64,000 bases of DNA from Planctomycetia bacterium (GTDB lineage Bacteria; Planctomycetota; Planctomycetia; Pirellulales; Thermoguttaceae). Under the pieces are notes generated by a model. It had not been told where the DNA came from. It saw only the letters and a program-made list of their open reading frames with translations, and searched no databases. Positions 1 to 35,498 of the stretch are shown piece after piece. The stretch lies in NCBI GenBank assembly GCA_030539035.1, contig JAUNSU010000005.1:1-64000 (forward strand). The letters run 5' to 3'. Made by a program: the position numbers and the translations under genes. How positions within the stretch are numbered: position 1 is the first letter of the stretch; the number at the start of each line of letters is the position of its first letter.

Positions 1-3000
1 ACAGGGACTTTCACCGCGATTAACGAGACGGTCGATCTCGATAACGGAATGACCCTTCGTCTCGAAAACGGAAAAGTCTTCACTTACAAGACCGGTACCT
101 ATCTGATCAACGGAACGACCTATTCCGCCATCTATGTCGATGAAACCGCAAAGTTTACAACAGTCGATCTTTTGGGCGAAGTTCAGTCGGATAATACCTG
201 GGCCAATGTCCGCGCTGCCGTTACCGTTTCCAATATGGTTTTGGTCAACGGAAATATTACCGCTGCGGTCAGCTTCAATTACAAATACAATTCCGACGGA
301 ACAAAGATCCTTTCCGCCGGTTTCAAGGGTTCCGACGGTAAAGTCATCGACATCGCTTCCGGAAGCGTCATTCGATGGAACGGTGTGAATTACATCTATT
401 CCTCGACGACGGATACTGCCGGGAATCTCAATATCACTTTCACAAAGGTCGAATTTTCCAAAGATCTTTTCGGAGCCAGTGTTGGAAAAACGACCTCGGT
501 TCCTGTTGAACTCGTTACTCCATCCGGCAATGTTTCGCTCACATACTTGTATCAGTACTCCAGCACTGGAGTGCTTCAGCAAAGCAAGTTCATGCAAAAC
601 GGAAAAGATTATGCGGTTGAATCCGGTTCAACGATTGTTTACAACGGATCGAATTACATTTACCGGAATCTTTCCGGCAACGTGATCTTTGAAAAGACCG
701 ATAAGGCGGAAGGCGACGTGATCGTTCCGTCCGATCTCGGCGGAATCGGCGCGACGGCCGGGACAATCGAAGTTACGTTGTATACTTCCAGCAGTTCCAG
801 AACCGTCAATTATAAAATCAAAAACGGCGTGAATGTCTTTACAGACGCGTATGATCTCCAGGTGAATGTTCCGACCGGTACCCTTCTTTCTTTCGTCGAT
901 CCGGTATCCGGCGCAACCCGATATTTTGTTTATACCGCTTTCGTTCGCGGTGTTACCGAAGAAGCCTTTACGGAAACCTGCTTCGATATCGCTCCCAATG
1001 ATGAATCCGGTGATGGTCTGATCGTTCTCGCGACCGATCGTCCGGAATATGAGGATTCCCTGCGAACTTACCTGCTGACCCTGAAGATCGATCCGATCAC
1101 AGGAACGCAAAAGTTTTATCGGACTTATTCCCGCGGTGAAATCACGGTCGGCGATGTTACCGATGCCTTCTTCTTCGAAGACGGAACGAATTTCCTCTTC
1201 TATCGCGATACCGCTTCCGAATGCCTTGGGGCAAGCTATTTGAAGATCACTCCGAACAGCGCGTCCGGAGAGCAGCTTTATCTTTACAGCAATACACTCA
1301 GCTTTACCCTTCGTGAAGTGAATGATGCCGATCAGAATCTCGAATACGATTACACGAACAATTCCGCGTCCGTTTCCTTCCAGACATTTTTGACCCAGGA
1401 CGACTTCTTCGTTCCGAACGCTTCTCTGGAAGAACTGGATAAATCGACGAATAGCGATATCTACGTCAATGGACAGACCCAGAGTCCGGAAGATCATTAC
1501 AATCCGAATCTCGGCGCGATCGTTGATCCGAACTTTACCGTTAAAGATCTCGTTCTTCTTACCCCGGAAGACTGGTTCTCCTTCGAAATTCAGGGACAGA
1601 TCACAGCCGATAATAATGTGTCAATCGAATTCAACAGCAGCCTCGGCGATCTGAATCTTTACGTTTACGCGGTGGATTCCTCCTATCCGGGCGGATACCG
1701 CCTTGTCGGACGGAGTGTTTCTCTCAACGATAAAGAAACGGTTTCCCTTTACGGCGAATCGTCCGGAACCTTCTTTGTCCGCGTTGTCGGAGCTTACGGC
1801 GCGAAGAATCCGAATTACACCTTGACGATCAACGGATCGATGCCCGTCGAGATCGATAATGCCGTCGTCGGAATCGATGAGATCACAACCATTAACTCCA
1901 GCGCGCTCGTTACCTGGGAACTCCTCAAAGATTACAACGGCGAAGGTGTTCCGGAAGGTTATCGATACGGCGGTGAAAAAGAATATATCAATAAAACGGT
2001 CATTCAATGGTCCACCGACGATACTTTCGCAATATACAATGAAGCGGAAGCCGGACGATACGCAACGAGCTGGACTCTTACGAATCTGGATCCCGATACA
2101 ACCTATTATTGCCGCGTTATGGCTTACAACGCCAACAACGAAAGCGGGGAATTCAGCCATACCGATTGGTCCGCGGTCCGATCGTTCAAGACCTCCGACT
2201 TCTTCAACAACGCGAATTATTACGCTCTGGTCATTGGAGCTTCCGAATACTCCAGCGGTGAAGACGCGGCTTTCGCGAAAGAGGATGCCGTCGGCGTTTA
2301 CAATGCCCTGATCAGTTCCGCTCCGCAGTGGAGTTCGGAAAATGTTTCCCTTTTGACCGGAAAGGTTACTTACAGCCAGATCAGTACAGCATTCGACAAT
2401 ATCGCGTCCCGGGCCAAAGATAACGACGTCGTCTTCATCTATTACGCCGGACTCGGATACACCAGCAGCGTCTCCGGACTCGATGTCAGTTATCTGCGCA
2501 CCTACAAAGCGACCGCCGATATGAAATATCTGATCAGTCCCGATGATCTCAGCGTTCTGGTCGATCGCTTGAATGTCGGCGAAATTCAGGTCGTTCTGAA
2601 TCCTTACTTCTACAATACATCCCAGGCCGCCGACGCGGAACGATTCCATTATACCGACTTTATCGATGTCCTCGATAATAATACCGATGAACTCGTTACC
2701 GTGATCACCGCGGCGAACACAAAAGAAAATACTTACAAAGACTCGACCGGAAATGATTACTTCGGCGAGTACATCGTGAACGGAATGACCCTGCGCGATG
2801 AAAACGGTCTTCTCGTTGCCGATACTAATGAAGACGGACGTCTTTCCATGCGCGAATTGTACGATTACACGTACAGCAATGTCGTTTCCGATACCGGCAA
2901 TATCCAGCATCCGCAAATCGGCGTCAACGGCGACCGCGATTCCATCCTCATCAAGGGCGATTGGACCGAAGACGGTTATTACAAAGATGATTGGTGGGAT

Positions 3001-17380: not shown

Positions 17381-20300
17381 TCACTTCAGTTCCGTGAGAA
17401 GTTCATCGTAGATCGAAGATTCCGCGGTTCCGCTTTCGGAAACGATGTTTTCTTCGAATCCGTAATCTCCGATCAGATCCAGATCTTCCTCGGCGTAAAT
17501 CGAGTCGATCGACTGATTGATGTGCTGACGAAGGATCCGATTGCTCAGACGCTCCGCAGTGAACGACGGAAGAACCGAAGCCGCGATCGGAAGTTCGGCC
17601 GCGCTGACCGGTTTTTCACTCGTTTCGCGAAGTCCGAACAGCTCCTCAAAGAAGAGCGCGTTCTCCTGGACATAATTCGATCCGGCTGTCTCCGAAGGCA
17701 AACCCGATTCGCTCGGAACCGTGATCGTTTCTTTCCTCGGGAGTGATGAATCCGCGGCGGACACAATCGTTTCCATTACCGGAAGTTCAGCCGGAGCCGC
17801 ATAAGAATCGACAACATGATTTCCGAGCGAGTATACGAACGATTCGCCGTATCCCTCGGTATCGATCAGTTTAAGGGTGATCGAGAAGTCACCGTTCTTT
17901 TCATAATAATGCGCGGCATTCAACTTTGTTCCGGCCGCTGCGATCGGCAGCTGATCTTTGGATTGATCGCCCCAGTTTACGAACCATTGACTGATCCGAC
18001 CCTGCGAGTTCATTCCGACATTGATGACGAGCTTGAGAACCTGTCCGTCGGCGAATTCGTACGACTTCACGGAAATGGTCGGGAGAACATATTCGATGGT
18101 AACCATCTGTTTGGACGACCAGCGAAGAAGTTCGGGATTGATCTCGGTTTCGCCCGGCAGCAATGATCCGGCCGCAACGATCTCTCTTTCCTGATCCGAC
18201 CAGTCGGAGTCGATATAGCCGTCATTCGACAAAGCCTTGATCTGGAAGATGTACGTCGCGCCGATTTCAAAGCGCGCATTGACCGTTGCCGCAGTTCCGT
18301 AGAAGAAGGACTGACCGGCGGCGTTCTGATAGATCGTCCAGGCATCGTCGGATTCTCCGACCTTCTTGTACCGGATCTGATACTTGTCGGCATGATCCAC
18401 AGCGAGCCAGGAGAGGTAGACCGAGGTCGAAGTAACCAGATGTGTATCCACAAGCTGCGATAGGCCAGTCTGCGGCGCTATCTTGATCGTGTAAACCGCT
18501 TCATAAGGATCCTCAACGCCATCGACTTTTGCGAGGATCGTAATGGAATAAAGTCCATCGGGGATTTCCCTCGCCGCGGTCAAGTTTCCGGTTGCGGAAT
18601 CGATGATAAAGAGCGGCTCAACCAGCGGATCCGCGTTTTCATCGGCCTTGATCGAATAGGTAACCGCAGTACCCCGCCGTTCGGCCCGGAATCCAAAGGT
18701 CGTGATTTCAGTGCCGGCTTCGATCTTGCTGTCGGTTGAGACAACGGGGATCTCGTTGGCCGCGTTCGCGTTTGAAGCCGTAATGATATTGATCTTGCCT
18801 TCTCCCTGATATTCGTAAGCGCCGATATCGATGATGGCGTTGACGATTCGCGGATTGCCCGCGGCATCCTGCGCGGCGGCAGTTCGGGTTGTCGTTCCCT
18901 TGTCGATCGCGGCGGTTGCCGTATCAAGCAGCTGAAGATTCCAGCTCTTGTACAGATTCTTGTTCCATGTTGTGTAGGAAGCGAACGAAGTAAAGAGGGA
19001 CACGGGATCCGTACCGATCAAATTATTGACATTATTGGCAACAGACCATTTTTCGGGCTTGGCATAAATATCGGCTTCAACGGCTGCTTTGTTTCCGGTA
19101 ACGATGGAATCGGTCAGTGTGAAATCGATAATGGAGAAGATTCCGCCGCCCTGTCCGGAAAGGACCGTTTTGCCGTTTTCATCGACGGTTCCTTTGGCGT
19201 AGTTTCCGGCGAGCGTGCTGTTTTCGATCTCAACGTTTCCGGAGACCAGGGCGACACCGCCGCCGAATCCCGCGCTGTTGCCGGAGAGATCGGAATCCCG
19301 AATGATCAGGGACGTTCCCTGATGGGAAACCGCGCCGCCGTATCCGGTTCCGGAATCGTTCCCGGAGATCATGGATCCGATAATGGTAACATTACCGATA
19401 TTGTTGGTTCCGCCGTTGAAGATCGCACCGTTTCCGGTCGCGGTATTTTCAACGATCACACTGTTTAGAACGGTCAAATCGCCGACGTTGCGAATAGCGC
19501 TTCCGTCCTTTGCGGTATTGTTCTTAAAGGTACAATCTTCAACGGTGAGTTTATAGGCGTTATTGATCGCGCCGCCCTGCATGGGCGATTCGCTTGCGGC
19601 CATAACGAGAGAGTTTCCGTTTATAAAGGTAATTCCCTTGAGGAAAACACCGCCGGTTTGAGTAATGGTCTTATCGGTAATATTATTACTGATACTGAAG
19701 ATCCGGCTCTTGTTCTGGGCATCGATTGTGATTCCCCCGATGGAAGACGCATCGATATTGATCACAGTAAGATGATGTCCGTCGAACGTTGCGTTATTAT
19801 AAGGGATCTCGATCTGCCCGTTTTGCAGAACGATGGTCTTTCCTTTCAGATCGCTGGAGAATCTGATATCCGCAATTCCGCCATCGATCCCCTCGTTGGC
19901 CGCGGAGAGAATCGCTTCCCGAAGCGAAGTCTTTCCGTCATCGGGATCGACGATATCCTCTTCCGTGTTTACGATGAATTCGTTGGAAAGCTTGACTTCG
20001 AAATCAACGTCGACCCCATTGAAGTCGGACCAGTTGTTCAGCTTCGTACTTTCCAGAACCGTATTGTTTACATCGAGATAGATCCGGATTATGTAGTTGC
20101 CTTCTCCGAGGAATCCGAGACTGTAATCGTTTACGGAGAATGTTCCGTTTTCCGCAAGGAAGTCGGTACTGGAGAGTTCTTTCGTTTCGATGTACTGTCC
20201 TTTGTTGATCTCGACATATTCCCCGTCAATCTGCTTATAGAGATGGATCTGGTAATCGAACGAACGGAAGATGATGGCGGGGCCGAGATTGATCCCGGTG

Positions 20301-23300
20301 AAGTTGACGGTAACTTCGGTCGCGGTACTTGGATTGGCCGGATTAACACTGACCTCCGGTGTTGTAAAGGCGAGATCACTGTAAACAATCGCGGCGAACT
20401 CGTAGGCACCGAGATCGACGATCGGAATATAGATTTGTCCGCCTGCTGTGGTTCCGTTAAAGATCCGGGCGTTTCCGAGGATATCGTATTCAAGCGCGAT
20501 CTGGCCGTTCGGTGTCATTTGAATTGCGTTTTCATTGATTCCGACATCGATTCCATAAGAAGTGCTGGTGAGCTGAAGTCCGTTTTCGGCAAGGACTCCG
20601 GTTTTCACCGTCTGGAAGGTTTGCGCAAGATCAACCTTGAAGAAAGGATCGATGATATTGGCATCGGATCCGATAAAGCATGTACCATTGACGGTCCAAT
20701 CTTCGGTCTCTTCGGCCCATCCGATCATGGACGCGGAAACGGCAACGGATCCTCCGGCGCTAATGATATCGAGTCTTTGATCGCCAAGGGTATTTTCCCA
20801 ATCGGACGCATCACGAGTCTGTGCGACGATCGAATTGAAGAGGGCAAGGCTTCCAGTATTGGAGATCGATCCGCCTTTTTCCGCCGCGGCACCGTTGACA
20901 CCGACTGTAACATTGTACAGGGCAAGAGCTCCGGCGGCATTGTAAAACGCCGCGCCTTCCGCCGCCGCGTTCATCCCGAAAACAGAGTTCGAGATGAAAG
21001 CAGTTTCATTAAGCAGATAAGCCGCACCGCCCCGGCCGAAGATCGTCTCTGTTCCCGCTGCCGTATTACTGAACGATGCGCTGTTTCCTCCGATTCGGCT
21101 GTTGTCGATGTAAAGGCCTGTTGTGCCGGGCAATCCGGACCGGTAAAGACCCGCGCCTTCAGATGAAATGATCTCCTGATTATCCTTGTTGAATACGGAC
21201 AGATCCTTGTCGGATTTAATCTCGATCGTATTCTCCTGGATATTGGATCCGGAAACAATCGTATCGACACTGACCGAACCGTTCACGGAAGGATCCAATG
21301 TGTAGGCATTATAGATCCCCGCGCCGGCCGTCTTGATTCCTGTGATATTGTCCCGATCAAAAGTTCCGAGATTGACATTGATCTTGTTGCCGGAAACGGA
21401 TGTTCCCAGGGCGCCGCCCATCTCAAATCCATTTTCGACATAGATCCCGCCGCCGCGAACTGTAAGATCGACCCCGTATCCAAAGGCCGGATCGATCGTA
21501 ACGATCGTTTCATTATCTTCGATTTCCGAATTATAGATCTTCAGAACAGTACTGTCGTTCGGATCGAGAGCGGAGACGTTTTTGACCGCGCTCCAAATTC
21601 CCGCGCCGCCGATTGTCCGGACCCAATTACTCTCTTCCGCGGCAGAGCAATTGATCGTAAGCTGGTTTTTACTGATCACGGATTGATCGATCACGGCAAC
21701 AGCGGTTGTATAAAGACCGGCACCGTAAAGTTCGCCGGTATTGTTCATGATAATGGAATCGGAGAGTTCCAGCTTTCCGTTTTCCGCGGCGATTCCACCG
21801 CCGATCATCGCGCTGTTATTTGCAGCGTTGATCCCGGAGATCACGGCATTGCCGCTGACATAAAGCGCACCGCCGTAAAGGGTATTGACGATTCCCGTTC
21901 CCTTGATCAGGCTGTTTTCGGAGAATTCAATATCCGAAAGTTCAAGATCGCCGACCACGGCCAAACCGGCTCCGTATCCGGTGAATGTGCCCGACGCGTC
22001 CACTTTCGGATCGATCGGATTCACGGAAACGGTATTATTCTCATACTTGGTTGGATTCAGTTCATCTGTGCTTCCGGTAATGATGGTTGTTCCGGCACTG
22101 TAAAGACCGGCGCCGCCTGCCTTCACGTTGATATTCACATTCTGATAATCCAAAACGATCGTATTACCGGTAAAGGAAACATTGTCCATGATCAGATTCT
22201 GATCGCTTTGACTGTAAACACCGGCACCGTAGGCTTCCGGATAGGTATTGTATTTCTCATAGACAACTTCGATCTTATTCTTTACAACGGCGGAATTGTT
22301 CATTGTGAGCGATCCCGTGCTGTAGATTCCCGCTCCGTACTGACGGGCCATGTTATTTTGAACCGTGCAGTTGTTCAGTGTAAGGTTTCCGTAGTTTTCG
22401 ATTGCGCCGCCGTTTCCGCCGCCGATAATATCGAATCCGTTTTCGGCTCTTTCAAATTCGGCAAATCCGTTCTGAAGAACCATGTTGTTAATCGTAATAT
22501 TGATGTCGGAAATTTTATTCGATCCGAACGTAAAGATCTGAATGGCGTCCTGACCGCTGACTGTAACCGGGAGATCTGTCGAAACTGCCGGATCCCAGGT
22601 TTTCGTTGCATCATTCCATACGACGAATTGACTTGCGTCGATCGTGATCGATTTTTCGACAATGATTTTTCCGTTTTCCGCAACCAGATTGATCTCTTTT
22701 CCCGGCTGATTGAAAACAGAAGCGTCAAAGAGGATCACAGATCCGAGTGTATCCGTCTGCTTGAGGACGTTGCGGTCTTTATAGGTAAGGATCTGTCCGG
22801 CGGAAGAAGGATATTCCGTTCGCCGAATCGAATAAGTAACACTCTTGAGAGGATCGTAGACGTATTCTTCGGTACGTTCGGTCCGATCCGTGTAGAATTT
22901 GTTTTCCGCCGCGTCGTAATAGCCGTAAACAGTCTGCTGATCGGCGGAAAGAAGGATATCGCCCTCTTCCGGAGAAATCGTTTCGGATTTTACGATTTCG
23001 TATGTACCGGCATTTCCGTTGAACGTGAGATCGGTTCCCTTCTTAAGGGCATAAAGATCAGTCCCTGAGCTCCAATATCCATTTTGCCAAGTCAAAGTAA
23101 GTTCGGCTGTGAGTTCTTCTCTGACTCGAACAGAGTTCTCGTTGAGCTTGAAGACGGTTTCTCCGGCAGAGACTTTTACCTGATTTCCGACAGCCAAATC
23201 CTGATACACGTAAGCTCCGGCGGTTCCTGTTCGGATATAATATCCGGAAGCAGTTTGGACAAAAGTAACAGGATCTGCCGCCTTGTCGTAGCCGCTGATA

Positions 23301-26300
23301 TTTTCTATCAGATCGAAAGTCGAAGAAACGTAGGTACCTTCCGGAATCGCAACTTCAGTTCGTCTTTCGCCAGTCCATGTGTACCAGAAGTCTCCTCCGA
23401 CATGGACGGAATTGAGAACGAGTTTCGTTCCTTCCATGAAACGGTAAAGCGATCCGTTTTCCATGACGAAAACGTCTTTTTCCGCATTGTAGGTAAAGAC
23501 AGTTCCAGCATCATATCGGGCTTCGGCGGGCGAGGTTCCCTCGATTTGAAGCAGAATCACGGTATCTTCATAAAGAAACAGGGTCGTACCGTCCGCGATT
23601 TCCGTAATAACATCGGTTGTAACTCCCTGTTCGACGGTTTTGAGATAATCGCCTTTTTCGACATTGTAAACTTTGTCGCCTTCGACGTAATAGATCGGGC
23701 CCTGTGCCTCATCTGTTCCAGCCACCTGAATGTAATTTCCGGACGCGATCTCATATTCCTTCGTGTACTGGGAACCCGCCGCGCGAATCGCTTCCCGCAG
23801 TGAGGTCAAGCCGTCAAACGGATTATTAACATCCGATTCGGTCGTAACGACGATCGGATCAGAAACGAGCTGTTCTGCAACCTGGATCTTGACATAAGAT
23901 TTATTGTTTGCTGTCGATGTCTCATTGATTCTGGTATATACCGGGATCGATGACGGGAGGTATGCCGAACCGGAATCGGGATTCAATTCCATCATGAAGA
24001 GATAGGCTCCGCGATCGAGTGTTCCAAGGTTAAGATCCTCAATGGTGATAAGCCCGTTTTCCGCGTAGCGGATCGTACCGACGACAGTGCCGTCTACAGT
24101 CAAGTTCCCGGAGGAACCGATTTTGACCGATCCGGTTGCGCTGCCGTTGATTCGAAGTTCTCCGCCAAAGATCGTCGAATCTGAAGTTAAAACTTTCAGC
24201 TCGGATCCGGAAGCCGGATTAGCGTAAGAAGGCGAGATCATGACCGTGAACAGGGATTCCGTGGAAACGGGCAAACCCGCTTTAACGGTCGATCGCGTAA
24301 AGTTGACATAGGTATTAAACGGCAATGTACCCGTTGCCGTAATTGCGTCCGCGACAAGAGCATTGTATTCGTTGATACGTGTTGTATTTCCTTTTAACGC
24401 ATTATACAATTTCTCGGAACTGCTGATATCCGTTCCACCGGTTAAACTTTTTCCGGCAAGAAAAGTATTCAGATCTTTTCCGAACCAGGCCGTATAAAGT
24501 TCATCCATCTTTTCTGTTGCGACCGCCCAGGAAGCATCAGTATAGAAAAAGCCAGTTGTACCTAATCCTGTATTGTTCGCGAGACAATAGGCGAGCTTGA
24601 CTTTCCAACCAACAGGAGGCAAAGAAGGAGTGGCCGATACATTGTTAATGGCTTCCGCAAGCAGAAGATTATATTTATTCATCAGCACGGCGAGATTGTT
24701 GGTCCATGTTTCCGCGACTTTTTCATCTTCGGAGTTGGCCAATTTGGACCAGTCGAGGACAAGTGTGCGGAATTTTTTCGGCGTACTGATATCGGCACTT
24801 AAAGTATTGTTTATACTAATTGTACCAACCGCGGTGAGGAAAGTCGAGAAATCAATATTAACATTTGTGTCTGCATCTTTTCCGAGCCAGGCATAATAGA
24901 TATCTTCCAGAGCTTTAAGTTCCGAGGTCGCATTGACCGATACGGAATAAAGCCAATCATTGAGCAATGTCCCGAAAAGGGCAAATCCATCGCTGACAAA
25001 TTTTTGCTGCAGATCGGTGAGAGCAACGCTCCCTGCCTTGAAGGCGGCATGGAGTTTACCCGGATCACTGACATCAACATTATCACCCAGTGTTTTGACT
25101 TCTTCGTTGAGATATTGCACAAAGTTCATTCCGTTGAGAAGATCGGAAAAATATGTATTGCAGTTCGCGATTGCCGCATCGTATTCCGTTGTGTTAGTCG
25201 TTGTCGCCGCGAGCAGCTGCGCAAGCGCGTCGTCCAAGACTTTCTGACCGACGGTGGCGCCGTCGAGATTCGTAAAGGAAAAGTTCAGATAAACAGATTC
25301 GTCCTCGGCAATGACATTGGATGTAGTATCCGGTTCAAGAACGAAATTCTTTCGAACATCTTCATCACCGTCTTTCGTTTCCGTTCCGGAGACGCCGAAA
25401 CCGACCCGATCCCCTTGCGTCTTACTTGCGATGGCAGAGGAATTCCAGTCATATTCCGCTTCGGAATTGGTTGTTTTCGGGGCGAACTCGGAAAAATCGG
25501 ATTGAGAAGAGACCGGATCAGCCGTTCCCTGGTATTCGAACGCGCCCGCATCGATATTCTTGCCGACAATTCGGTCTTTACGACCCAAATCGTATTTGGC
25601 TTCTTGTTTAATAATTAAAGTTGCAACTTCGGTCTGCCGATCCGCGTTGACATTTTCGGCAACATAAGCATCCCTCAGATCGGTGAAGAATTTTGTATTG
25701 ACCGATTCGGTCTGAATTTCAAGTGCAAGAGCACCGCGCAAAACATCGGTATTATTCTGATAAAAGATCTGCGGCGCTGTGGACGCGTCATCAAATGAAA
25801 CGGCAGCGATCGGGCTGTTCGCGACGAGGAATTCGCCGAATCCGCTTGTACTTCCGAACATGCGGACATACAGATTATCCATATCGTTTAAGGCATTTGC
25901 ATAAGTATTTTGTCCCTGGAAAGCCGTCAAGGAGGTAACCATTGCATCCCACAAGGCACCGTCTGTATTCATAATGCCTGGACGGGCATTATTCGGGTTA
26001 TAACGATCCTGTGTTGTTCCTTTTTGAGGATACCCTGTCAAAATACAAAGATCAATATCTTTGAAATAACCTGAATTACCGGCGGTCGTTCGGGTAGAAT
26101 AAAATTTATCCGCGTTACTGATATCGAAAGTAACATATTTTGTCAAATCGGCTTTGTCTCTAAACCGAATGGACCCTTGCGCGAGAGCACTTGGAGTTCC
26201 CGTCATGTAATTACCCTGCCGGGCAAGGAAAGCATTGAAACTTGTATAATACGCACCTGCCGCGTCATTCCAGACATATTTACTGAACAAATTATTCAGA

Positions 26301-29300
26301 TTAGTCAAAGCGGCATTATATTCATTTATTTTATTGGTTTTGTCCGTCGCAATAAAAGAATTAATCGCTGTCTGGATTTTCGCGGTAATCGCGTCCGCAA
26401 ACGCGGATTTGACCAGAGTATCAATGACAGTCCCATATTCCACGTTATTGAGTGCGAGGCAGAATTTGACAGGAGTACTGATATCGACGGTGCAGTGATT
26501 GGCAAGTGTAACAAGTCCGTTATCTCCGAGCGTCGGGAGAAATTGCGCCAGTGAGGTATACCCCAGATCCAAATCAACAAGAGCGGCATCGACCGCGTCC
26601 CGCGCCGTGTAATATGCATCGGTATCGGCACCAATATTCATCAAGGTGGTCAGCGCGTTGCCGAATTCCACCCCGTAGCCTGTCGCCCAGTTGTTATTCC
26701 AGTCCTCTGTATACTGCCGAGCGTGATCGGCTTCTCTGTCTTTTTGATAATTCGTATTCCAGTAGGTTGTCCACTTGTCGACAATATACTCGCTTTCGGT
26801 ATAATAAGCCTGATTTCCGAGATCAATCGCGACGGAAGAGGCACTCACAGAAAGGTTCCAGTCTTTCCAAAGATCCGCCGACCATTGGATCTTGTCGGCA
26901 TCCAGAATCATGGAGACAATACCGTAACCCAAATAGTCCGCGTTGACTTTATAAACGGCGTAATCTTTATAGAGGATGAACCCCGCCTCGATCGGATTTG
27001 TTCTGGTTCCGGCTTTCGTTCCAGTTCCTTCGGAAATCTTTTTTCCTTTGGTATTGCCGTAATTGTAGGTATTGTAATCGTTATCGATGCTTTTGTCGCG
27101 GATCAGGCTGTAATAGACGTTCGTTCCGCCATTATTGTTAAAAGCGTCTTTTTCCGTAAAAATATCGTTTCCGCGGTCCGCGTAATTATTGGCAAAGAGC
27201 GAGTTGTAGATATTCGCTCGGCCGTTGTTTTCCAAACCGCCGCCGCTCCAGACCGAAAGGTTTCCGGCAACGGTGCAGTTGTACATGTCCAGTTCACCGG
27301 TAAAGTAGTTGAAGATCCCGCCGCCGATCGAGGAACTGGAGACATCGCCGTTGTATGTCGTCCGGTTGCCGATGATCTCACTGTTGAGAATCGTCAATTT
27401 TCCGAACGCGTCGTTGAAGTCGTATTCGTTTCCGGTCATGTCAGGATAATACATCGGGGCGTATCCGCCGGTATTGTAGATCCCGCCGCCCCCCTTCAGA
27501 GCACTGTTTCCGGCAATGATCGAATCTTTGACCGTGAGCCAGCCGTAATTATTGTAAATTCCGCCGCCATACTGAAGCTGAACGTCCGGAAAATCGTTGT
27601 CGGTCGTCGCGTTTCCGCCGGTAATAACAAAGCCCCGGATCTCCGCCGTGATATTGTCCACCTGAAGGACCCGTCCGGACGCATTCTGAATCGTTCCGTC
27701 TTCGAGCTTCAGACGGGCATCGATCGTGATATTTGTGCCCGCGTCGAGCTTGACATCGCCCTCGCCAAGCATAACGCGATGGGATGTATCACCGGCAACA
27801 TTCGGATCCGCGAAATGATAGAAATATTGCGCGTCGAGCGTTGTTGTTTTTCCGCTCAATTCGTAATTCAAATAAAGTTCGCCGCGATAATCTCCGTTAT
27901 TATCGTTTCCAAAATAGAAAGTTTTATCGGTGGAAAGGAGTTCATCCGAAAAGACGATCGTTGTGCCGACAAAGCTTCCGTCTTCCAGTCGTCTTCCGAT
28001 ATAAGAGAGTGCCTCGCGGAGAGAGATCTTGCCGTCCATCGCGACAGAATCTTCCAGAGTGGTAACGACAATGGCATTGTAGTAAGGATCTTTCTCGTCG
28101 AGCGCACCGCCGGTTTCATCGTATCGCACGACGAAATCTTCAAGATTTTCGGTAACGGAAAGCGTATAGGATCCCATGCTTCCGTAGTCGGAAAAACCGT
28201 TGGTCAACGCGTTTCCTTCTCCGATTCCGTAGACCTTGATATAGAACGTTTCCCCTTCTGCGAGCTTCCCGGTCGTGAAATGGGTAAAGGAAGTCGTCAA
28301 TGGATCGTAGAATTGAATGATCTCACCGCGGCTGTTGAGGAGTTCCACTTTGACATTGAGGTTGGTCATCCACCAGTCGAAGGCGTAATAATAGTCGGAT
28401 GCTCTGTCCGCCCAACGATTTGGGGCACTGTTCCAACGCATATCGGCGCCGATCGTACTGACATCGATGACATAACTTCCTCCGCTGGAAACGAAGGAAA
28501 AGACATCCTGATCGTAGATCACACCGCCGTTCTCATCTTCGGAGCGTCCGATCACACCGGAAACAAGATACGTTCCCTGGGAACTGCTGTACTTATCGAT
28601 TTTGGCGTACTGATTTTTCCATTCGTTGTAATTTTCATAAAGGGAAATCAGCGGATCGTACTGCCAATAGACATCGACGAGGAAATCGGAAAGATCCTGT
28701 GCGTCGGCAAGTGTATTTCCGAAATCGTCCACCCGATATCCCAATCTGGAGGCGATCATGGCGACTTCGTCCTGTGCTCCTTCGGCGGAAGCATATTCGC
28801 CCTGAGACCATTGCGTATACTGCTTTGCCTGGGAATTGGGATTTCCCATGATCGGACCCCATTTATCACGGCCCGGATAAGCTTCTTCATTCAGCAGATA
28901 AGCGTCCGAAGAAAGTCCAAGGGCCCCACCAATCGAAGCGGAAGCCCCTTCCGCCGTAATTTTGGCCAATGTCGTATTCAGTGTCAGTCCGCTCTCTGAT
29001 GCGGAAGGAGCTACGCCATTTAAATTATTATTAAGATAGTTTCTCGTCAGGCCCGTTCCAACGTCAAGGGAAATATAAGATCCGGATCCTTTTACCGCGG
29101 CGTCTGTGGTAACATTGACATTAAACGGCATGAAATCTTCAGCGACCCGCTGCCAGACCTCCTGAATAAAGATCCGTTCCTGAAAACTCGCCGTTGCGTT
29201 GTGAGAATCCAAACCAATTGTCGTAAAATCAAGGTAAATAGTGTTTGGAGCCCCTTTATAACTCTGAAGAGAATAAGTGTCTTCCAAAGCGTAAGGAGAG

Positions 29301-30835
29301 ATCTTCGCGGAATAATTCGCGAGAAATTCCAGACCTGTAAACGCCATGTTGACGAAAAAAGGCTTGGTTTGGCCTTCATTAAACCCGTAGGTGACCGCTT
29401 CACCGAAAGGACTTCCTCCGATGTATTCATCACCCCAAATGTCCGGCGTTGTGGTTTTATTATTCGCGCTGAACTGGCTTCGCTCAATAAAATAGGAAAA
29501 ACTATTTCCCTCGCCGTCTCCATAGTAGAACAGTCTGAAAAGAGGATCAGAATTAACAAGGCCATTAAAAGAGACGCCTTTGTCGTCTGCTGTCCGCAAT
29601 CTAAGCCAATCCGGTTCTATCGCGAAAGTATAACAACCCGTACCTTCATTCCATTCAACCAGGTACCAGACATCCTTCTTAATGTGATCTTCACGCGGAT
29701 CCTCATCGTTGTAATTTGGAGAAGTAATATTATAGTCGTCGTTTGCGAACATGACAGCGGCGTAGTGTTTTGTATCCGTAACACTGTTTACAAGAGTACG
29801 GGAAGGAATATAAACATCTTTAATTACAAGAGATGATTTATCGGCCAAAGAATCCCTGGTTGGGAAAAAAGTCCCTTTTCCTGCGTATGGAGTAAGATTA
29901 TTGCCATGGCCCAAGCCATATTTAAAGGCCTTTCCGTTATCCAGTGCAACATACTGAAGTTCAGCGGAAACGGCGGTTCCTGCGTCTAATGCGATAAAAG
30001 CCTGGCCCATATATCCGCAATCTTTACCGTCTTTAGAGGTACTTCCGGTAAAGGCGTTGTAATTTCCGCCAACGGAATCATAATTGACTTCCTGAAAGAA
30101 GCCGCCGCCGTCCGCATTGGTTTTCGGGATCCAGGCGTCGTGTTCTGTATACCATCGTGCATCAATTTTACTGAAATCGCCTGTAATAAACCATTCGACG
30201 ATTTCATCGGGATAGGCATCAAATCTTTCTTCAAAATTCGCCTTGATATGCGTTAAGACCGATTCGGCATCATCAAAACCTGCCGCCTGAGCCCATCCGG
30301 AGACCCAAAGCATCTCCGCCGCCGTCTCCATATGGGTCGAAGTACTGAGGTAATAATGCTCGCCGACACTGGGACTGCTCTCATCCGATTCGGCCCGTTC
30401 GAGTTCGTAATTGAAATCACCGGAAACACTTTTATAATCCGCTTGAGCCTTATTTCCGGTTTTCGTTCCGTCCGCATAGTATTCGTTGGGGGTGGCAACG
30501 GCGGTCGAACTAGTACTGGTCGTATTCGGAGTCGCGGAAGCGGCAACGCCATTGGAAAGATCGGTTGCAACTGATATATTCGACCCAGCTTCCGGCGCGG
30601 CAAGGCTCTCATTCATCACAATCGGAACGTTCAGCTCCAATTCTTCATAATCGACCGTGGTAACCGATAAAAGCTGCCGGTCCTCCAACGGCTCCAAACG
30701 AAGAGATCTGCCGGAAAACCACTGTTTCCGCTCCCTGTTCTGCCGGGCCTCACCGCTCGCACTCCTCTTGATCACGGATCCGCTGGAAACGACCGCATTC
30801 TTAACCTTCGCATTGATTCGACTAAAAAGACTCAT
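17381..30835 (-). CDS. Giant secreted modular protein with LEPLEDRQLLSV export motif and degenerate peptidase domains (4,484 aa)
   Basis: The start is set at 30835 because AGGAG lies nine bases before this ATG; a longer frame reaches 30910 without such a site. Residues 47-58 read LEPLEDRQLLSV, a motif common at the N-terminus of large exported planctomycete proteins. Order by residue: IdeS-like region (about 150-420), metzincin-like region (about 525-715), PPC (about 750-900), and SLREA/beta-helix module 1 (about 920-1768, with a large helical insert). A region with a second helical insert follows, then module 2 (about 2324-3478), CARDB-like (about 3486-3615), module 3 (about 3617-4007), cadherin-like (about 4015-4118), FN3 (about 4129-4222), PKD-like (about 4248-4338) and an acidic tail. 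The zinc site reads ASIGGALGLSS instead of HExxHxxGxxH. A surface or matrix role is inferred. It has its own promoter and terminator and is convergent with the other giant gene. Confidence 0.92.
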   Translation of the reverse strand: MSLFSRINAKVKNAVVSSGSVIKRSASGEARQNRERKQWFSGRSLRLEPLEDRQLLSVTTVDYEELELNVPIVMNESLAAPEAGSNISVATDLSNGVAASATPNTTSTSSTAVATPNEYYADGTKTGNKAQADYKSVSGDFNYELERAESDESSPSVGEHYYLSTSTHMETAAEMLWVSGWAQAAGFDDAESVLTHIKANFEERFDAYPDEIVEWFITGDFSKIDARWYTEHDAWIPKTNADGGGFFQEVNYDSVGGNYNAFTGSTSKDGKDCGYMGQAFIALDAGTAVSAELQYVALDNGKAFKYGLGHGNNLTPYAGKGTFFPTRDSLADKSSLVIKDVYIPSRTLVNSVTDTKHYAAVMFANDDYNITSPNYNDEDPREDHIKKDVWYLVEWNEGTGCYTFAIEPDWLRLRTADDKGVSFNGLVNSDPLFRLFYYGDGEGNSFSYFIERSQFSANNKTTTPDIWGDEYIGGSPFGEAVTYGFNEGQTKPFFVNMAFTGLEFLANYSAKISPYALEDTYSLQSYKGAPNTIYLDFTTIGLDSHNATASFQERIFIQEVWQRVAEDFMPFNVNVTTDAAVKGSGSYISLDVGTGLTRNYLNNNLNGVAPSASESGLTLNTTLAKITAEGASASIGGALGLSSDAYLLNEEAYPGRDKWGPIMGNPNSQAKQYTQWSQGEYASAEGAQDEVAMIASRLGYRVDDFGNTLADAQDLSDFLVDVYWQYDPLISLYENYNEWKNQYAKIDKYSSSQGTYLVSGVIGRSEDENGGVIYDQDVFSFVSSGGSYVIDVSTIGADMRWNSAPNRWADRASDYYYAFDWWMTNLNVKVELLNSRGEIIQFYDPLTTSFTHFTTGKLAEGETFYIKVYGIGEGNALTNGFSDYGSMGSYTLSVTENLEDFVVRYDETGGALDEKDPYYNAIVVTTLEDSVAMDGKISLREALSYIGRRLEDGSFVGTTIVFSDELLSTDKTFYFGNDNNGDYRGELYLNYELSGKTTTLDAQYFYHFADPNVAGDTSHRVMLGEGDVKLDAGTNITIDARLKLEDGTIQNASGRVLQVDNITAEIRGFVITGGNATTDNDFPDVQLQYGGGIYNNYGWLTVKDSIIAGNSALKGGGGIYNTGGYAPMYYPDMTGNEYDFNDAFGKLTILNSEIIGNRTTYNGDVSSSSIGGGIFNYFTGELDMYNCTVAGNLSVWSGGGLENNGRANIYNSLFANNYADRGNDIFTEKDAFNNNGGTNVYYSLIRDKSIDNDYNTYNYGNTKGKKISEGTGTKAGTRTNPIEAGFILYKDYAVYKVNADYLGYGIVSMILDADKIQWSADLWKDWNLSVSASSVAIDLGNQAYYTESEYIVDKWTTYWNTNYQKDREADHARQYTEDWNNNWATGYGVEFGNALTTLMNIGADTDAYYTARDAVDAALVDLDLGYTSLAQFLPTLGDNGLVTLANHCTVDISTPVKFCLALNNVEYGTVIDTLVKSAFADAITAKIQTAINSFIATDKTNKINEYNAALTNLNNLFSKYVWNDAAGAYYTSFNAFLARQGNYMTGTPSALAQGSIRFRDKADLTKYVTFDISNADKFYSTRTTAGNSGYFKDIDLCILTGYPQKGTTQDRYNPNNARPGIMNTDGALWDAMVTSLTAFQGQNTYANALNDMDNLYVRMFGSTSGFGEFLVANSPIAAVSFDDASTAPQIFYQNNTDVLRGALALEIQTESVNTKFFTDLRDAYVAENVNADRQTEVATLIIKQEAKYDLGRKDRIVGKNIDAGAFEYQGTADPVSSQSDFSEFAPKTTNSEAEYDWNSSAIASKTQGDRVGFGVSGTETKDGDEDVRKNFVLEPDTTSNVIAEDESVYLNFSFTNLDGATVGQKVLDDALAQLLAATTTNTTEYDAAIANCNTYFSDLLNGMNFVQYLNEEVKTLGDNVDVSDPGKLHAAFKAGSVALTDLQQKFVSDGFALFGTLLNDWLYSVSVNATSELKALEDIYYAWLGKDADTNVNIDFSTFLTAVGTISINNTLSADISTPKKFRTLVLDWSKLANSEDEKVAETWTNNLAVLMNKYNLLLAEAINNVSATPSLPPVGWKVKLAYCLANNTGLGTTGFFYTDASWAVATEKMDELYTAWFGKDLNTFLAGKSLTGGTDISSSEKLYNALKGNTTRINEYNALVADAITATGTLPFNTYVNFTRSTVKAGLPVSTESLFTVMISPSYANPASGSELKVLTSDSTIFGGELRINGSATGSVKIGSSGNLTVDGTVVGTIRYAENGLITIEDLNLGTLDRGAYLFMMELNPDSGSAYLPSSIPVYTRINETSTANNKSYVKIQVAEQLVSDPIVVTTESDVNNPFDGLTSLREAIRAAGSQYTKEYEIASGNYIQVAGTDEAQGPIYYVEGDKVYNVEKGDYLKTVEQGVTTDVITEIADGTTLFLYEDTVILLQIEGTSPAEARYDAGTVFTYNAEKDVFVMENGSLYRFMEGTKLVLNSVHVGGDFWYTWTGERRTEVAIPEGTYVSSTFDLIENISGYDKAADPVTFVQTASGYYIRTGTAGAYVYQDLAVGNQVKVSAGETVFKLNENSVRVREELTAELTLTWQNGYWSSGTDLYALKKGTDLTFNGNAGTYEIVKSETISPEEGDILLSADQQTVYGYYDAAENKFYTDRTERTEEYVYDPLKSVTYSIRRTEYPSSAGQILTYKDRNVLKQTDTLGSVILFDASVFNQPGKEINLVAENGKIIVEKSITIDASQFVVWNDATKTWDPAVSTDLPVTVSGQDAIQIFTFGSNKISDINITINNMVLQNGFAEFERAENGFDIIGGGNGGAIENYGNLTLNNCTVQNNMARQYGAGIYSTGSLTMNNSAVVKNKIEVVYEKYNTYPEAYGAGVYSQSDQNLIMDNVSFTGNTIVLDYQNVNINVKAGGAGLYSAGTTIITGSTDELNPTKYENNTVSVNPIDPKVDASGTFTGYGAGLAVVGDLELSDIEFSENSLIKGTGIVNTLYGGALYVSGNAVISGINAANNSAMIGGGIAAENGKLELSDSIIMNNTGELYGAGLYTTAVAVIDQSVISKNQLTINCSAAEESNWVRTIGGAGIWSAVKNVSALDPNDSTVLKIYNSEIEDNETIVTIDPAFGYGVDLTVRGGGIYVENGFEMGGALGTSVSGNKINVNLGTFDRDNITGIKTAGAGIYNAYTLDPSVNGSVSVDTIVSGSNIQENTIEIKSDKDLSVFNKDNQEIISSEGAGLYRSGLPGTTGLYIDNSRIGGNSASFSNTAAGTETIFGRGGAAYLLNETAFISNSVFGMNAAAEGAAFYNAAGALALYNVTVGVNGAAAEKGGSISNTGSLALFNSIVAQTRDASDWENTLGDQRLDIISAGGSVAVSASMIGWAEETEDWTVNGTCFIGSDANIIDPFFKVDLAQTFQTVKTGVLAENGLQLTSTSYGIDVGINENAIQMTPNGQIALEYDILGNARIFNGTTAGGQIYIPIVDLGAYEFAAIVYSDLAFTTPEVSVNPANPSTATEVTVNFTGINLGPAIIFRSFDYQIHLYKQIDGEYVEINKGQYIETKELSSTDFLAENGTFSVNDYSLGFLGEGNYIIRIYLDVNNTVLESTKLNNWSDFNGVDVDFEVKLSNEFIVNTEEDIVDPDDGKTSLREAILSAANEGIDGGIADIRFSSDLKGKTIVLQNGQIEIPYNNATFDGHHLTVINIDASSIGGITIDAQNKSRIFSISNNITDKTITQTGGVFLKGITFINGNSLVMAASESPMQGGAINNAYKLTVEDCTFKNNTAKDGSAIRNVGDLTVLNSVIVENTATGNGAIFNGGTNNIGNVTIIGSMISGNDSGTGYGGAVSHQGTSLIIRDSDLSGNSAGFGGGVALVSGNVEIENSTLAGNYAKGTVDENGKTVLSGQGGGIFSIIDFTLTDSIVTGNKAAVEADIYAKPEKWSVANNVNNLIGTDPVSLFTSFASYTTWNKNLYKSWNLQLLDTATAAIDKGTTTRTAAAQDAAGNPRIVNAIIDIGAYEYQGEGKINIITASNANAANEIPVVSTDSKIEAGTEITTFGFRAERRGTAVTYSIKADENADPLVEPLFIIDSATGNLTAAREIPDGLYSITILAKVDGVEDPYEAVYTIKIAPQTGLSQLVDTHLVTSTSVYLSWLAVDHADKYQIRYKKVGESDDAWTIYQNAAGQSFFYGTAATVNARFEIGATYIFQIKALSNDGYIDSDWSDQEREIVAAGSLLPGETEINPELLRWSSKQMVTIEYVLPTISVKSYEFADGQVLKLVINVGMNSQGRISQWFVNWGDQSKDQLPIAAAGTKLNAAHYYEKNGDFSITLKLIDTEGYGESFVYSLGNHVVDSYAAPAELPVMETIVSAADSSLPRKETITVPSESGLPSETAGSNYVQENALFFEELFGLRETSEKPVSAAELPIAASVLPSFTAERLSNRILRQHINQSIDSIYAEEDLDLIGDYGFEENIVSESGTAESSIYDELLTELK
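24300..26800 (-). other. Helical repeat inserts within the second giant gene
   Basis: Two blocks (about 25590-26800 and 24300-25240) are helix-rich and break the beta-rich character of the protein. A recurrent D-I-S-x-P/S-x-K-F/L signature is found near 26480, 26115, 25065, 24780 and 24420. It is usually preceded by Y-x-x-W-(L/F)-G-K-D or F-x-x-F-L and followed by an N-E-Y-N-x-L-like helix. The first block lies between the A-I-D-L-G-N and I-D-A-G-A-F-E-Y segments of one anchor-Q cap, which are normally close together. Confidence 0.6.
28901..28948 (-). other. Metzincin-type zinc-site region with all ligands replaced
   Basis: Residues 630-645 read GASASIGGALGLSSDA. In related planctomycete and cyanobacterial proteins the equivalent stretch reads A-S-H-E-x-G-H-x-L-G-L-x-H-D-G. 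The flanks are conserved: I-Y-L-D-F near residue 529, W-x-R-V-A-E-D-F-x-P-F-N-V-N-V-T-T, W-x-P-I-M-G, Q-W-S-x-G-E-Y, Q-D-E-V-A and D-D-F-G-N-T. The His residues become Ala633, Gly637 and Ser643, and the catalytic Glu becomes Ser634. Only the structural Gly640 remains. Confidence 0.8.
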
Positions 30836-30908
30836 GAGTTTGACTCCTGAAATATACAAAAATACCATTTTTTCGGGCAGAAATACCCCCACCCCGGGGC
30901 TCTTTCTC

Positions 30909-30926
30909 AATCTGTCCGGACAGATT
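30909..30926. promoter_or_regulatory. Perfect 18-bp palindrome, candidate operator
   Basis: AATCTGTCCGGACAGATT is perfectly self-complementary. It lies about 13 bases downstream of the candidate -10 box of the second giant gene, so it would cover or directly follow the transcription start. Its position suggests a repressor site. No other copy was noticed in the window. Confidence 0.5.
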
Positions 30927-32176: not shown

Positions 32177-33994
32177 ATGAAATCAATGTTTTTTATACGG
32201 TCTTTCGCAGTATTCGCCGGTTTGGCATTCCTTTTTTCCGGATCGGTTTTCGCGCAATCCGTTGATCCGATCTCTCGTGCTGATCTGCTTCCGCCCGGGA
32301 TCAATTCCGACGATCTCGCCGCACGATCGGTGCCTGATCAAAGAGTGCGCCGGTTTGTGATCCCGAAAAAAGTTGTTTGGCAATCACAAAACGGGATCTT
32401 CCAGCAAGAGAAACTTCTTACGATTCCTTACGGTCAAACAACGACATCCGATATGAAAAACGGATTCACCATGAAAAAGAATAAGGGACAGGAATGCGCG
32501 ATCCTGCTCGATTTCGGACTCGAACTGCACGGCGGGATCCGACTCGATTCCCGATCTCTCTCCCCGTCAAAAGAGAGTGTCGGCCGAACGGCCCGTATTC
32601 GTGTCCGGTTCGGTGAATCCGCCGATGAGGCAATGGCCGAGATGGGCGAAAAAGGATCAACAAATGATCATTCCGTTCGCGATATGATCGTGAGTGTTCC
32701 GTTCCTGGGGTCCATTGAGTTCGGAGAATCCGCTTTTCGCTTTGTTCGACTCGATCTGATCGACGAAGGAAGTGAGATCTGCTTCGATTCCGTTCGAGCA
32801 GTCTTTATCTATCGGGATCTTCCCTGGATCGGGTCGTTCCGGTCAAGCGATGAACGATTGAACCGGATCTGGAAGACTGCGGCCTATACTCAGCATTTGA
32901 CCATGCAAAATTATATTTTCGAAGGCGCAAAAAGGGATCGACTCGTCTGGTACGGCGATTTCAATCCGCAAACCATGTCGACGGTTTATGTTTTCGGAAC
33001 ACCGAAAATTCTTAAAGATTCGCTCGGACAGTTTGCTCGGGACACCTGGCCGCTTCCGAAATGGATGAACGGAATGCCCAATTATTCTCTCTGGTGGCTG
33101 ATCTCGATCAGTGATGTCTATCGCTATTCCGGGGATCGGGACTATCTGAAAGAACAGTTTCCGTATATCAAAGGATTGATCAAACAGCTGGAAAAATCGA
33201 TCGGACCGAACGGGGAAGCGGCCTTTCCGAATCCGTTTTTGGATTGGCCAACGAATAAGAACAAACCGGCTCTTCGTGCGGGGACCCATGCGATGTTCGC
33301 AATCGCTTTCGAAAGGGTCAACGAACTGGCCCGATCCATGGGCGATCAGGAGCTTGAAAAGGAAACGGCCGATCAGTTGAAGAAGATCCGATCATTTTAC
33401 CCGGATCATTGCAATAATAAGCAGGCGGCGTCTTTACTCGCTCTTGCGGATCTCCAGCGGCCGGGAACATCGAATACGGCGGTTGTCGCGAAGAACGGAC
33501 CGGAAGGATTTTCAACTTTTTACGGATATTATATGCTTGAAGCCCTTGCCAAGGGAAAGAAAAAACAGCTTGCTCTGGAGATCATTCGGCAGTATTGGGG
33601 AGCGATGATTGATGTCGGGGCGACGACTTTTTGGGAAGATTTTGATCTGGACTGGCTCAAAGAATCCGCGCGGATTGATGAATTAACGCCGAAAGGAAAG
33701 AAGAGCCTCCACGGTGATTACGGTGCCTGGTGCTATATTGGATTTCGGCATTCGCTTTGCCATGCGTGGTCTTCCGGACCGGCCGCATGGTTATCGGCTC
33801 ATGTTTTAGGGGTCGTTCCGGCTGAACCCGGATTCAAATCGGTTCGGATTGATCCTTTTTTAGGCGATCTTGACTGGGCGGAGGGATCGGTTCCCACACC
33901 TTACGGACCGATTCGGGTCAAATTGTCGAAGGATTCGGCCGGTAAGATTAAAAAGGAGATTTCCGCCCCGAAAGAGGTAAAAATTTGTGATTAG
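32177..33994 (+). CDS. Secreted GH78-like alpha-L-rhamnosidase
   Basis: A 605-aa protein with a clear signal peptide (MKSMFFIRSFAVFAGLAFLF, cleavage likely after VFA-Q). The N-terminal third is beta-sandwich-like. The rest has the (alpha/alpha)6-barrel signatures of bacterial rhamnosidases: EGAKRDRLVWYGD near residue 252, GATTFWEDFD near 483, SLCHAWSSGP, and a C-terminal V-P-T-P-Y-G-P-I-R-V strand. The RDR/GD acidic residues and the TFWE glutamate expected for catalysis are present. It is short compared with many GH78 enzymes. A TATAAT box at 32154-32159 lies only 18 bases before the ATG and no good ribosome-binding site is visible, so the message may have a very short leader. The product would release rhamnose outside the cytoplasm. 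Confidence 0.85.
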   Translation: MKSMFFIRSFAVFAGLAFLFSGSVFAQSVDPISRADLLPPGINSDDLAARSVPDQRVRRFVIPKKVVWQSQNGIFQQEKLLTIPYGQTTTSDMKNGFTMKKNKGQECAILLDFGLELHGGIRLDSRSLSPSKESVGRTARIRVRFGESADEAMAEMGEKGSTNDHSVRDMIVSVPFLGSIEFGESAFRFVRLDLIDEGSEICFDSVRAVFIYRDLPWIGSFRSSDERLNRIWKTAAYTQHLTMQNYIFEGAKRDRLVWYGDFNPQTMSTVYVFGTPKILKDSLGQFARDTWPLPKWMNGMPNYSLWWLISISDVYRYSGDRDYLKEQFPYIKGLIKQLEKSIGPNGEAAFPNPFLDWPTNKNKPALRAGTHAMFAIAFERVNELARSMGDQELEKETADQLKKIRSFYPDHCNNKQAASLLALADLQRPGTSNTAVVAKNGPEGFSTFYGYYMLEALAKGKKKQLALEIIRQYWGAMIDVGATTFWEDFDLDWLKESARIDELTPKGKKSLHGDYGAWCYIGFRHSLCHAWSSGPAAWLSAHVLGVVPAEPGFKSVRIDPFLGDLDWAEGSVPTPYGPIRVKLSKDSAGKIKKEISAPKEVKICD

Positions 33995-34322: not shown

Positions 34323-35498
34323 TCACCCTGAACAAGGGTGATGTAAATTTATAGCTATATCACTCCCGGCCAAGGAAGATAAGTCCTCTTTTGGCCGGAC
34401 CGCTCTTTCAAAATCGTCGTCCATGGTATGGAGGTAATGTTTTAAGGCGGTTTCGGTTGTATGTCCCATCCAGTCCGCTGCGGTTTGCGCCGAATACGCG
34501 CTAAATAATTCATTAGCCCGACTGCCCCTCAAATTATGAAAGCACCGTTCCCAAGGTTCAAACCCAGCTCTGAATATAATCCGGCGGAATTGCGTCCTCA
34601 TATTGGCTTCCGTGTCCCTATGTTTAACAATAACAAACGGGCTTCCCCCTTCCACTGCCTGATCCCATTGTTTTTCAAGCTCTGCCCTTAATTCAGGAAA
34701 CATCGGAATAACCCGGGTTCCCTTTCCCTTTTTCTCTGTTTTGGGGGAGTGTACAAGGATCTTTTGAGTGTCCCAGTTTACATCTTCCCATTTTAACAGT
34801 AAAGTTTCTGAAGGGTTTCGCAAACCTCCGATCCGACAAAGGGAAATGAGGGTTCTCCAGTCCTGATCAGGGCAAGCGTCCAAGACCTTGTAATAATCAT
34901 CCATGGATACAAAATGTTCCCGTTTCTTATTTTCAAAGGATCCTTTGACGACATATCGGAAAGGACTTTGCGTAAATATACCCTCCTTAACTCCCCAATT
35001 AAACACAGCTTTTGTGTTCTTCATAAATCCCGCAATGGTTGCCGGACTGTATTTCTTTGAGGATTCAAGGGAATCCTTCCATTTTTGGGCTTGTTCCTTT
35101 TTCAGATCGGTTGCCAAAAGATCCCTGGGAAAATACTCAAAGAACTTTTTCTCCGACTGATCATAGTTTAAATACGTCCTTCTTACATATTTCTTTTCTA
35201 TGTTTCTTAAAAAACTTTCCCATAATTTACCGAGGGTATAACGCTCTTTTTCTTCAATGAGACCCACTTTCGCGAGTTTCTCTTGAATCTCATCGGGAAG
35301 ATTATCAATTCTTACCCGGATTTTTTCTGATATCTCCCGTCCATTATCCAAAAGACAGGTGATATCCTCTATAATTTCTTTTACTTCCTCTGTAATTCTC
35401 CTTCCATACTTACCCGGAATCCTAATAGATTTCCGTATTTTGTTAATTGCGAACTGAATTTGAACTGATTGTATTTTCATTTTTACTGGCGTTGCCAT
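34323..35498 (-). CDS. Tyrosine recombinase/integrase
   Basis: A 391-aa site-specific recombinase expected to integrate and excise the element at tRNA-Glu. The N-terminal part is a basic, helical arm- and core-binding region (LWESFLRNIEKKYVRRTY, a SAM-like fold). The catalytic domain shows RIGGLRNPSE (first Arg), HNLRGSRANELF (HxxR), WMGHTTETALKHYLH (His and the Tyr nucleophile). The stop codon lies about 55 bases inside the left attachment repeat, which is the usual arrangement. An AAAGGA site lies 10 bases before the ATG. Direct and inverted repeats 115-165 bases upstream may control it or act as arm sites. Confidence 0.93.
   Translation of the reverse strand: MATPVKMKIQSVQIQFAINKIRKSIRIPGKYGRRITEEVKEIIEDITCLLDNGREISEKIRVRIDNLPDEIQEKLAKVGLIEEKERYTLGKLWESFLRNIEKKYVRRTYLNYDQSEKKFFEYFPRDLLATDLKKEQAQKWKDSLESSKKYSPATIAGFMKNTKAVFNWGVKEGIFTQSPFRYVVKGSFENKKREHFVSMDDYYKVLDACPDQDWRTLISLCRIGGLRNPSETLLLKWEDVNWDTQKILVHSPKTEKKGKGTRVIPMFPELRAELEKQWDQAVEGGSPFVIVKHRDTEANMRTQFRRIIFRAGFEPWERCFHNLRGSRANELFSAYSAQTAADWMGHTTETALKHYLHTMDDDFERAVRPKEDLSSLAGSDIAINLHHPCSG

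Follow-up and report, generated by a model that had tools for sequence, protein, structure and literature searches.

A candidate metzincin pseudopeptidase among inactivated peptidase folds in giant planctomycete proteins

A giant protein of about 4,500 residues, encoded in a 64,000-nt sequence (the window) from an uncultured planctomycete, carries in its N-terminal head a metzincin-type domain that lacks its entire zinc site. The loss of the catalytic residues and the retention of the domain are directly observed. We read aa 552-735 as a pseudopeptidase, a dead metzincin that may serve in binding, and give this reading a probability of roughly 0.7. The metzincin fold would have descended from an active zinc endopeptidase and would no longer be able to bind the catalytic zinc or cut. 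The domain that precedes it, an IdeS-like fold, and a caspase-like domain in a neighboring giant gene have lost catalytic residues as well.

Coordinates of the features are collected in Table 1. The residue numbering of the giant ORF takes the upstream TTG (30910) as its first codon. The better start is the ATG at aa 26 from this TTG, where the relatives carry M[SGR]LF[SN]R. The assignment of aa 945-4035 as a beta-helix stalk is probable, judged from the repeats and from matches to the families TIGR04214 (E 6.1e-8 at aa 3645-3670) and NF041518 (E 8.9e-10 at aa 3995-4035) of NCBIfam; CARDB-like and PKD-like parts were also detected in the remaining chain by the Pfam and NCBIfam scans. The protein is probably exported, either to the surface or into the medium, as suggested by the LEPLEDRQLLS motif, which scores below the Pfam cut-off. 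The head would consist of the IdeS-like dead fold and the metzincin-type dead fold, followed by the PPC-like domain and the long stalk.

Table 1. Positions of the giant ORFs and of their domains and motifs in the window
Feature	Residues (aa)	Position	Strand	Basis or remark
Giant ORF		17381..30835	-	4,484 aa from ATG 30833-30835; frame open throughout
Giant ORF, longer version		17381-30910	-	4,509 aa from upstream TTG at 30910
LEPLEDRQLLS planctomycete extracellular motif	72-82	30665..30697	-	Pfam PF07595, E 0.015-0.037, below gathering score
IdeS-like papain-fold domain without catalytic Cys	178-540	29291..30379	-	Profile A5 match, AF2 model, site survey
Metzincin-type domain, putative pseudopeptidase	552-735	28706..29257	-	Homology to intact relatives, alignment, tree, model
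Former zinc site, ASIGGALGLSS replacing HExxHxxGxxH	658-668	28907..28939	-	Translation and alignment
Met-turn WGPIMG, retained	684-689	28844..28861	-	Met invariant in 100 aligned relatives
PPC-like beta domain after the peptidase domain	760-940	28091..28633	-	Relatives 46-56% identical; PPC assigned by eye, no Pfam hit
Repetitive region with CSLREA and choice-of-anchor Q motifs, probably right-handed beta-helix	945-4035	18806..28078	-	
PKD-like domain	4283-4355	17846..18064	-	Pfam PF18911, E 2.7e-4, below gathering score
Neighboring giant ORF, cut off by contig edge		49-15456	+	LEPLEDR-type protein with beta-helix repeats
Caspase-like domain of neighboring giant ORF		2206..2964	+	NF047832 E 6.8e-7; metacaspase-4 E 2.4e-6 (three-species profile)

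The original prediction had quoted a set of motifs around the replaced site, and translation of the minus strand confirmed every one of them, including VAEDFMPFNVNVTT (aa 589-602, 29105-29146), QWSQGEY (28793-28813) and QDEVA (28760-28774). In the alignment with intact homologues, ASIGGALGLSS lies exactly opposite HExxHxxGxxH, and the flanks are as usual, with the standard sequence before the site and WxPIMG, QWSxGEY and QDD after it. The zinc consensus HExxHxxGxxH/D is absent from aa 552-735, as are all zinc ligands and the catalytic Glu; the structural Gly and the methionine of the Met-turn are retained. The domain has a single His (aa 570), and its orthologues in the genus-mates G001 and G002 have two and none, respectively. 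One His makes a three-His zinc site impossible anywhere within the domain, and a zinc site in another segment was therefore rejected. It is very improbable that the domain remains an enzyme through a replacement catalytic or metal site. Migration of active residues has been described for pseudoenzymes at large (PMC10211241), but the His counts speak against such a site here, and the three orthologues show no evident new cluster of conserved polar residues.

Pfam and NCBIfam scans of aa 552-735 yielded no peptidase match and no Pfam model, so homology had to be established via intact relatives. Used as a single query, the domain finds an intact giant homologue in genome G023 (E 3.9e-29, 45% identity), a value at which we rejected chance resemblance, and an intact paralogue on contig C51 of its own genome (G000:C51; HEVGHSLGLRHDG; E 8.6e-10). 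The C51 paralogue in turn matches Pfam Reprolysin_3 (E 6.1e-6), and the family profile run against the PDB has serralysin 1akl as its best match (E 1.9e-5), with snake-venom metalloproteinases matching too. By sequence, aa 552-735 are homologous to the reprolysin/serralysin-like metzincins.

The AlphaFold2 (AF2) model of the domain has pLDDT 78.8 and pTM 0.80, with local uncertainty (pLDDT <50) at model residues 88-104. VIA-align superimposes it best on reprolysins, ADAMs and snake-venom metalloproteinases (Z 8.3 to 5.8), ADAM22 included, but the best Foldseek match had E 0.49, which is not significant, and the AF2 input alignment is full of intact relatives, which favors the parent fold. For these two reasons the structure prediction leaves the metzincin fold of aa 552-735 supported rather than proven. 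The domain resembles the M12B reprolysin/adamalysin and M10B serralysin families in its homology via intact relatives, in its Met-turn and in the model alignment (up to Z 8.3); unlike them, it has neither zinc ligand nor Glu, is without a Pfam match and resides in a giant bacterial protein.

Residue conservation was assessed over 135 distinct relatives, found in 60 of the 119 genomes of the family, in other families of the order, in Verrucomicrobia and in Methylovulum. HExxHxxxxxH is intact in 131 of them, which makes the loss neither a chance event nor the product of a mis-assigned segment. The four losses are all within giant proteins: ASIGGALGLSS in the window, YYSARSFGVEV in G001, YNAGGQLGLRS in G002 and HQIGFSLGLRP in G093, which belongs to another genus (g21). 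All four keep the structural Gly. In the maximum-likelihood tree the window species, G001 and G002 form one clade (support 0.998); together with the mostly intact giants of g21 they make up a 31-member clade (support 0.934), with G093 inside g21. Parsimony requires two losses, one of which predates the split of the three genus-mate species. A sequencing, binning or assembly artefact could be suspected, as the window and its relatives are metagenome-assembled genomes; its probability is negligible given a single open frame of 4,500 codons with no frameshift and three genomes with the same loss but different sequences, and we rejected assembly error because the three separate genomes agree. A wider genome scan for relatives returned only the two known genus-mates and distant intact proteins, and no closer species. 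One match, in G008 (L023), was dropped; it has internal stops and translates as an unrelated frame.

The G093 locus (L106, G093:C252:36109-36756) has lost its site independently, among intact close relatives, and this loss is probably a more recent instance of what happened in the three genus-mates. Giants of g21, among them L137 (G023), L139 (G105) and L140 (G103), reach 9,310 codons, and in many of them a dead IdeS-like domain is followed by a tandem pair of intact metzincin domains.

The dead domain is 46% identical to its counterparts in the genus-mates; intact paralogues from the same pair of species share 52% identity, so constraint is similar. Synonymous sites are saturated between species (pS 0.71-0.73 vs pN 0.36), and dN/dS fails for this reason. 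Identity is uneven along the domain: 77-85% from the first helix to VTT, 21-22% over the strands leading up to the site (within aa 604-645, where pLDDT is low), 26-52% around the site and 46-60% from the Met-turn onward. Compared with intact relatives, a loop close to the N-terminus is shortened by ∼20 residues. The fold core has been held and the catalytic center has been free to drift. The claim that the scaffold was kept is supported, but not uniformly: aa 604-645 are eroded and the loop is shortened. The further claim, of long-standing selection for a non-enzymatic role, gains support in that a loss common to three species, with nonsynonymous change well below synonymous, argues for long-standing retention without catalysis. 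Uneven conservation and drift to three different site sequences nevertheless leave room for slow partial decay.

Such decay is the main rival to our reading. Catalysis would be unneeded in a structural surface giant, and the domain would stay merely as a spacer that does not misfold. The uneven conservation keeps this explanation alive: each of the three species carries a site sequence unrelated to those of the other two, the adjacent strands are eroded, and the parallel loss in one g21 member (G093) fits repeated relaxation. We still consider relaxed decay unlikely. The identity of the first helix and the conservation of QWSxGEY, both remote from the catalytic center, go far beyond the usual needs of foldability, and the dead IdeS-like and caspase-like domains described below have been preserved with uniform substitutions in many species.

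The original prediction had missed both of these domains. Profile A5, made from two intact proteins of the genus-mate G003 (LCWAATASN..., GHAITLWGYVYD, ADSDN), matches window positions 30038-30331, within the IdeS-like domain, at E 6.8e-10. The AF2 model of aa 178-540 (mean pLDDT 64) aligns with IdeC 9hb1 at Z 12.1 and with IdeS 1y08 at Z 11.9; over IdeS, IdeC and TDE_0362 the scores are Z 12.1-10.9, and over IdeS, IdeC and Mac-1 ∼12, vs ∼7 for cathepsins and calpains. There is also a weak Pfam match to Mac-1 (E 0.02). The profile of the dead N-terminal domain (A3), run against PDB sequences, returned nothing useful. The IdeS-like identity is settled by the fold comparison together with the intact relatives (A5). 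The domain aa 178-540 has the papain-like IdeS fold without the complete Cys-His-Asp catalytic set. It is similar in fold to the IdeS/Mac-1 family (MEROPS C66), and it differs in the absent catalytic Cys, in an identity of at most 16% and in having no link to IgG.

The position of the catalytic Cys is occupied by Thr in the window protein (∼aa 192), by His in G001, by Gln in G002 and by Gly in the other genus. For the His position, the window protein allows no safe alignment. About 40 homologues in the family retain Cys, His and Asp, and the intact planctomycete homologues have the Cys, the His within GHAxT and DSDD. The Cys is absent in all 20 metzincin-bearing giants that were read, from two genera. 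In 17 of these, from the other genus, Cys and His are both lost with uniform replacements (AGWVGT / REYVSVWGY). A second class, 14 giants of ∼5,300 aa, also has dead IdeS-like domains without the Cys. For close pairs of dead IdeS-like domains in the other genus dN/dS is mostly 0.11-0.40, and it is similar for the 14 giants of ∼5,300 aa.

In the caspase-like domain of the neighboring giant, which matches the EACC1-type caspase model NF047832, GHG has become GLG (Leu at 2452-2454) and DAC has become NPY (2599-2607), and the domain has no Cys at all. The catalytic His and Cys are also lost in 22 homologous giants of two genera (23 of 23 read, ∼20 species), whereas stand-alone relatives retain GHG and DAC. 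Uniform substitutions recur across many species in the dead caspase-like domains (FAGSG/LDAGQ) as they do in the dead IdeS-like ones. The neighboring giant has a G001 counterpart that bears, in addition, an IdeS-like domain from which Cys and His are missing (LAWAGIS / TGAVTIWGY); in the G002 counterpart the IdeS-like site is intact. Bacterial conflict systems are known to contain inactive caspase-like domains, ∼70% in the effector position (PMC7159879). The domain described here shares with them the loss of catalytic residues and the match to the EACC1-type model, and it differs in residing in a giant LEPLEDR-type beta-helix protein, outside a conflict operon.

It is the dead preceding domain and the dead caspase-like neighbor that argue most strongly for non-enzymatic use in general. 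Three unrelated peptidase folds have lost catalytic residues in giants of one planctomycete family, with intact versions elsewhere, and they are best read as non-enzymatic modules of stalked, probably exported proteins. Intact copies of all three folds persist in the family, and those of the metzincin and IdeS-like folds (the latter G000:C39, L148) occur in the window genome itself.

These intact paralogues bear on another explanation, in which the dead domains, as regulators or decoys, tune or protect the active paralogues by binding their substrates, propeptides or inhibitors. Pseudopeptidases are known to regulate active relatives (PMC11266112), and both paralogues, metzincin and IdeS-like, are in the same genome. 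The explanation is improbable, more so than relaxed decay, as the paralogues lie on other contigs with no pairing seen, and a stalked protein of 4,000 to 5,000 aa would be an odd design for a soluble regulator.

We return to the pseudopeptidase reading. Sequence comparison shows aa 552-735 to be a clear peptidase homologue whose catalytic residues are lost, with the loss common to orthologues and the domain under constraint, as in pseudopeptidases. Zinc-dependent proteolysis by aa 552-735 is not expected, and we propose a non-catalytic function. The head may be a binding or adhesion module in which the former substrate-binding surface holds a protein or glycoprotein ligand, and the beta-helical stalk would present it away from the cell.

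Pseudopeptidases of the metzincin type have been described chiefly in animals, with roles in cell adhesion and receptor binding (PMC11266112); the present case is bacterial. In the eukaryotic ADAM pseudopeptidases (ADAM2, 11, 22, 23 and 32), which are multi-domain extracellular proteins, HExGHxxGxxHD is replaced, e.g. by QLLSLSMGITYD in ADAM2, and the Met-turn is kept (PMC11266112). The window domain is like them in its replaced site and retained Met-turn, with ADAM22 among its structural matches. It is unlike them in its bacterial origin, in its other flanking domains with no disintegrin or Cys-rich region, and in that its binding role is conjectural. We would class the domain as a bacterial metzincin pseudopeptidase within a stack of dead peptidase domains. 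More tentatively, and with somewhat less than even confidence, we suggest that this Thermoguttaceae-like family has giant surface proteins whose heads are built from dead peptidases of three unrelated folds (IdeS-like, metzincin and caspase-like) and maintained by selection for ligand binding, which would make them the bacterial equivalent of the ADAM pseudopeptidases.

A literature search limited to open papers found no description of these giants, which is weak evidence of novelty. Large surface proteins that combine a right-handed beta-helix with occasional peptidase-like domains have been described as adhesin-like proteins of gut methanogens (PMC11532034); these belong to another domain of life and have other domains, and inactivity of the peptidase domains was not reported there. 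Dead and intact domains found side by side in related species make the value of a protease fold without catalysis testable. Giants of this kind should not be annotated as proteases.

Elsewhere in the window, the region 34323-39074 (minus strand) encodes a DUF3987 primase-like protein and an integrase of phage type (PF00589). With the giant gene on one side and a block of carbohydrate-active genes on the other, this region is probably a mobile element that has integrated there. Glycoside hydrolase genes are present at 32177-33994, 41643-43049, 46118-47734 and 47771-50116, the hydrolases being alpha-L-rhamnosidase, GH42/DUF4832-like, alpha-L-arabinofuranosidase and alpha-N-acetylglucosaminidase, and suggest use of plant or host glycans.
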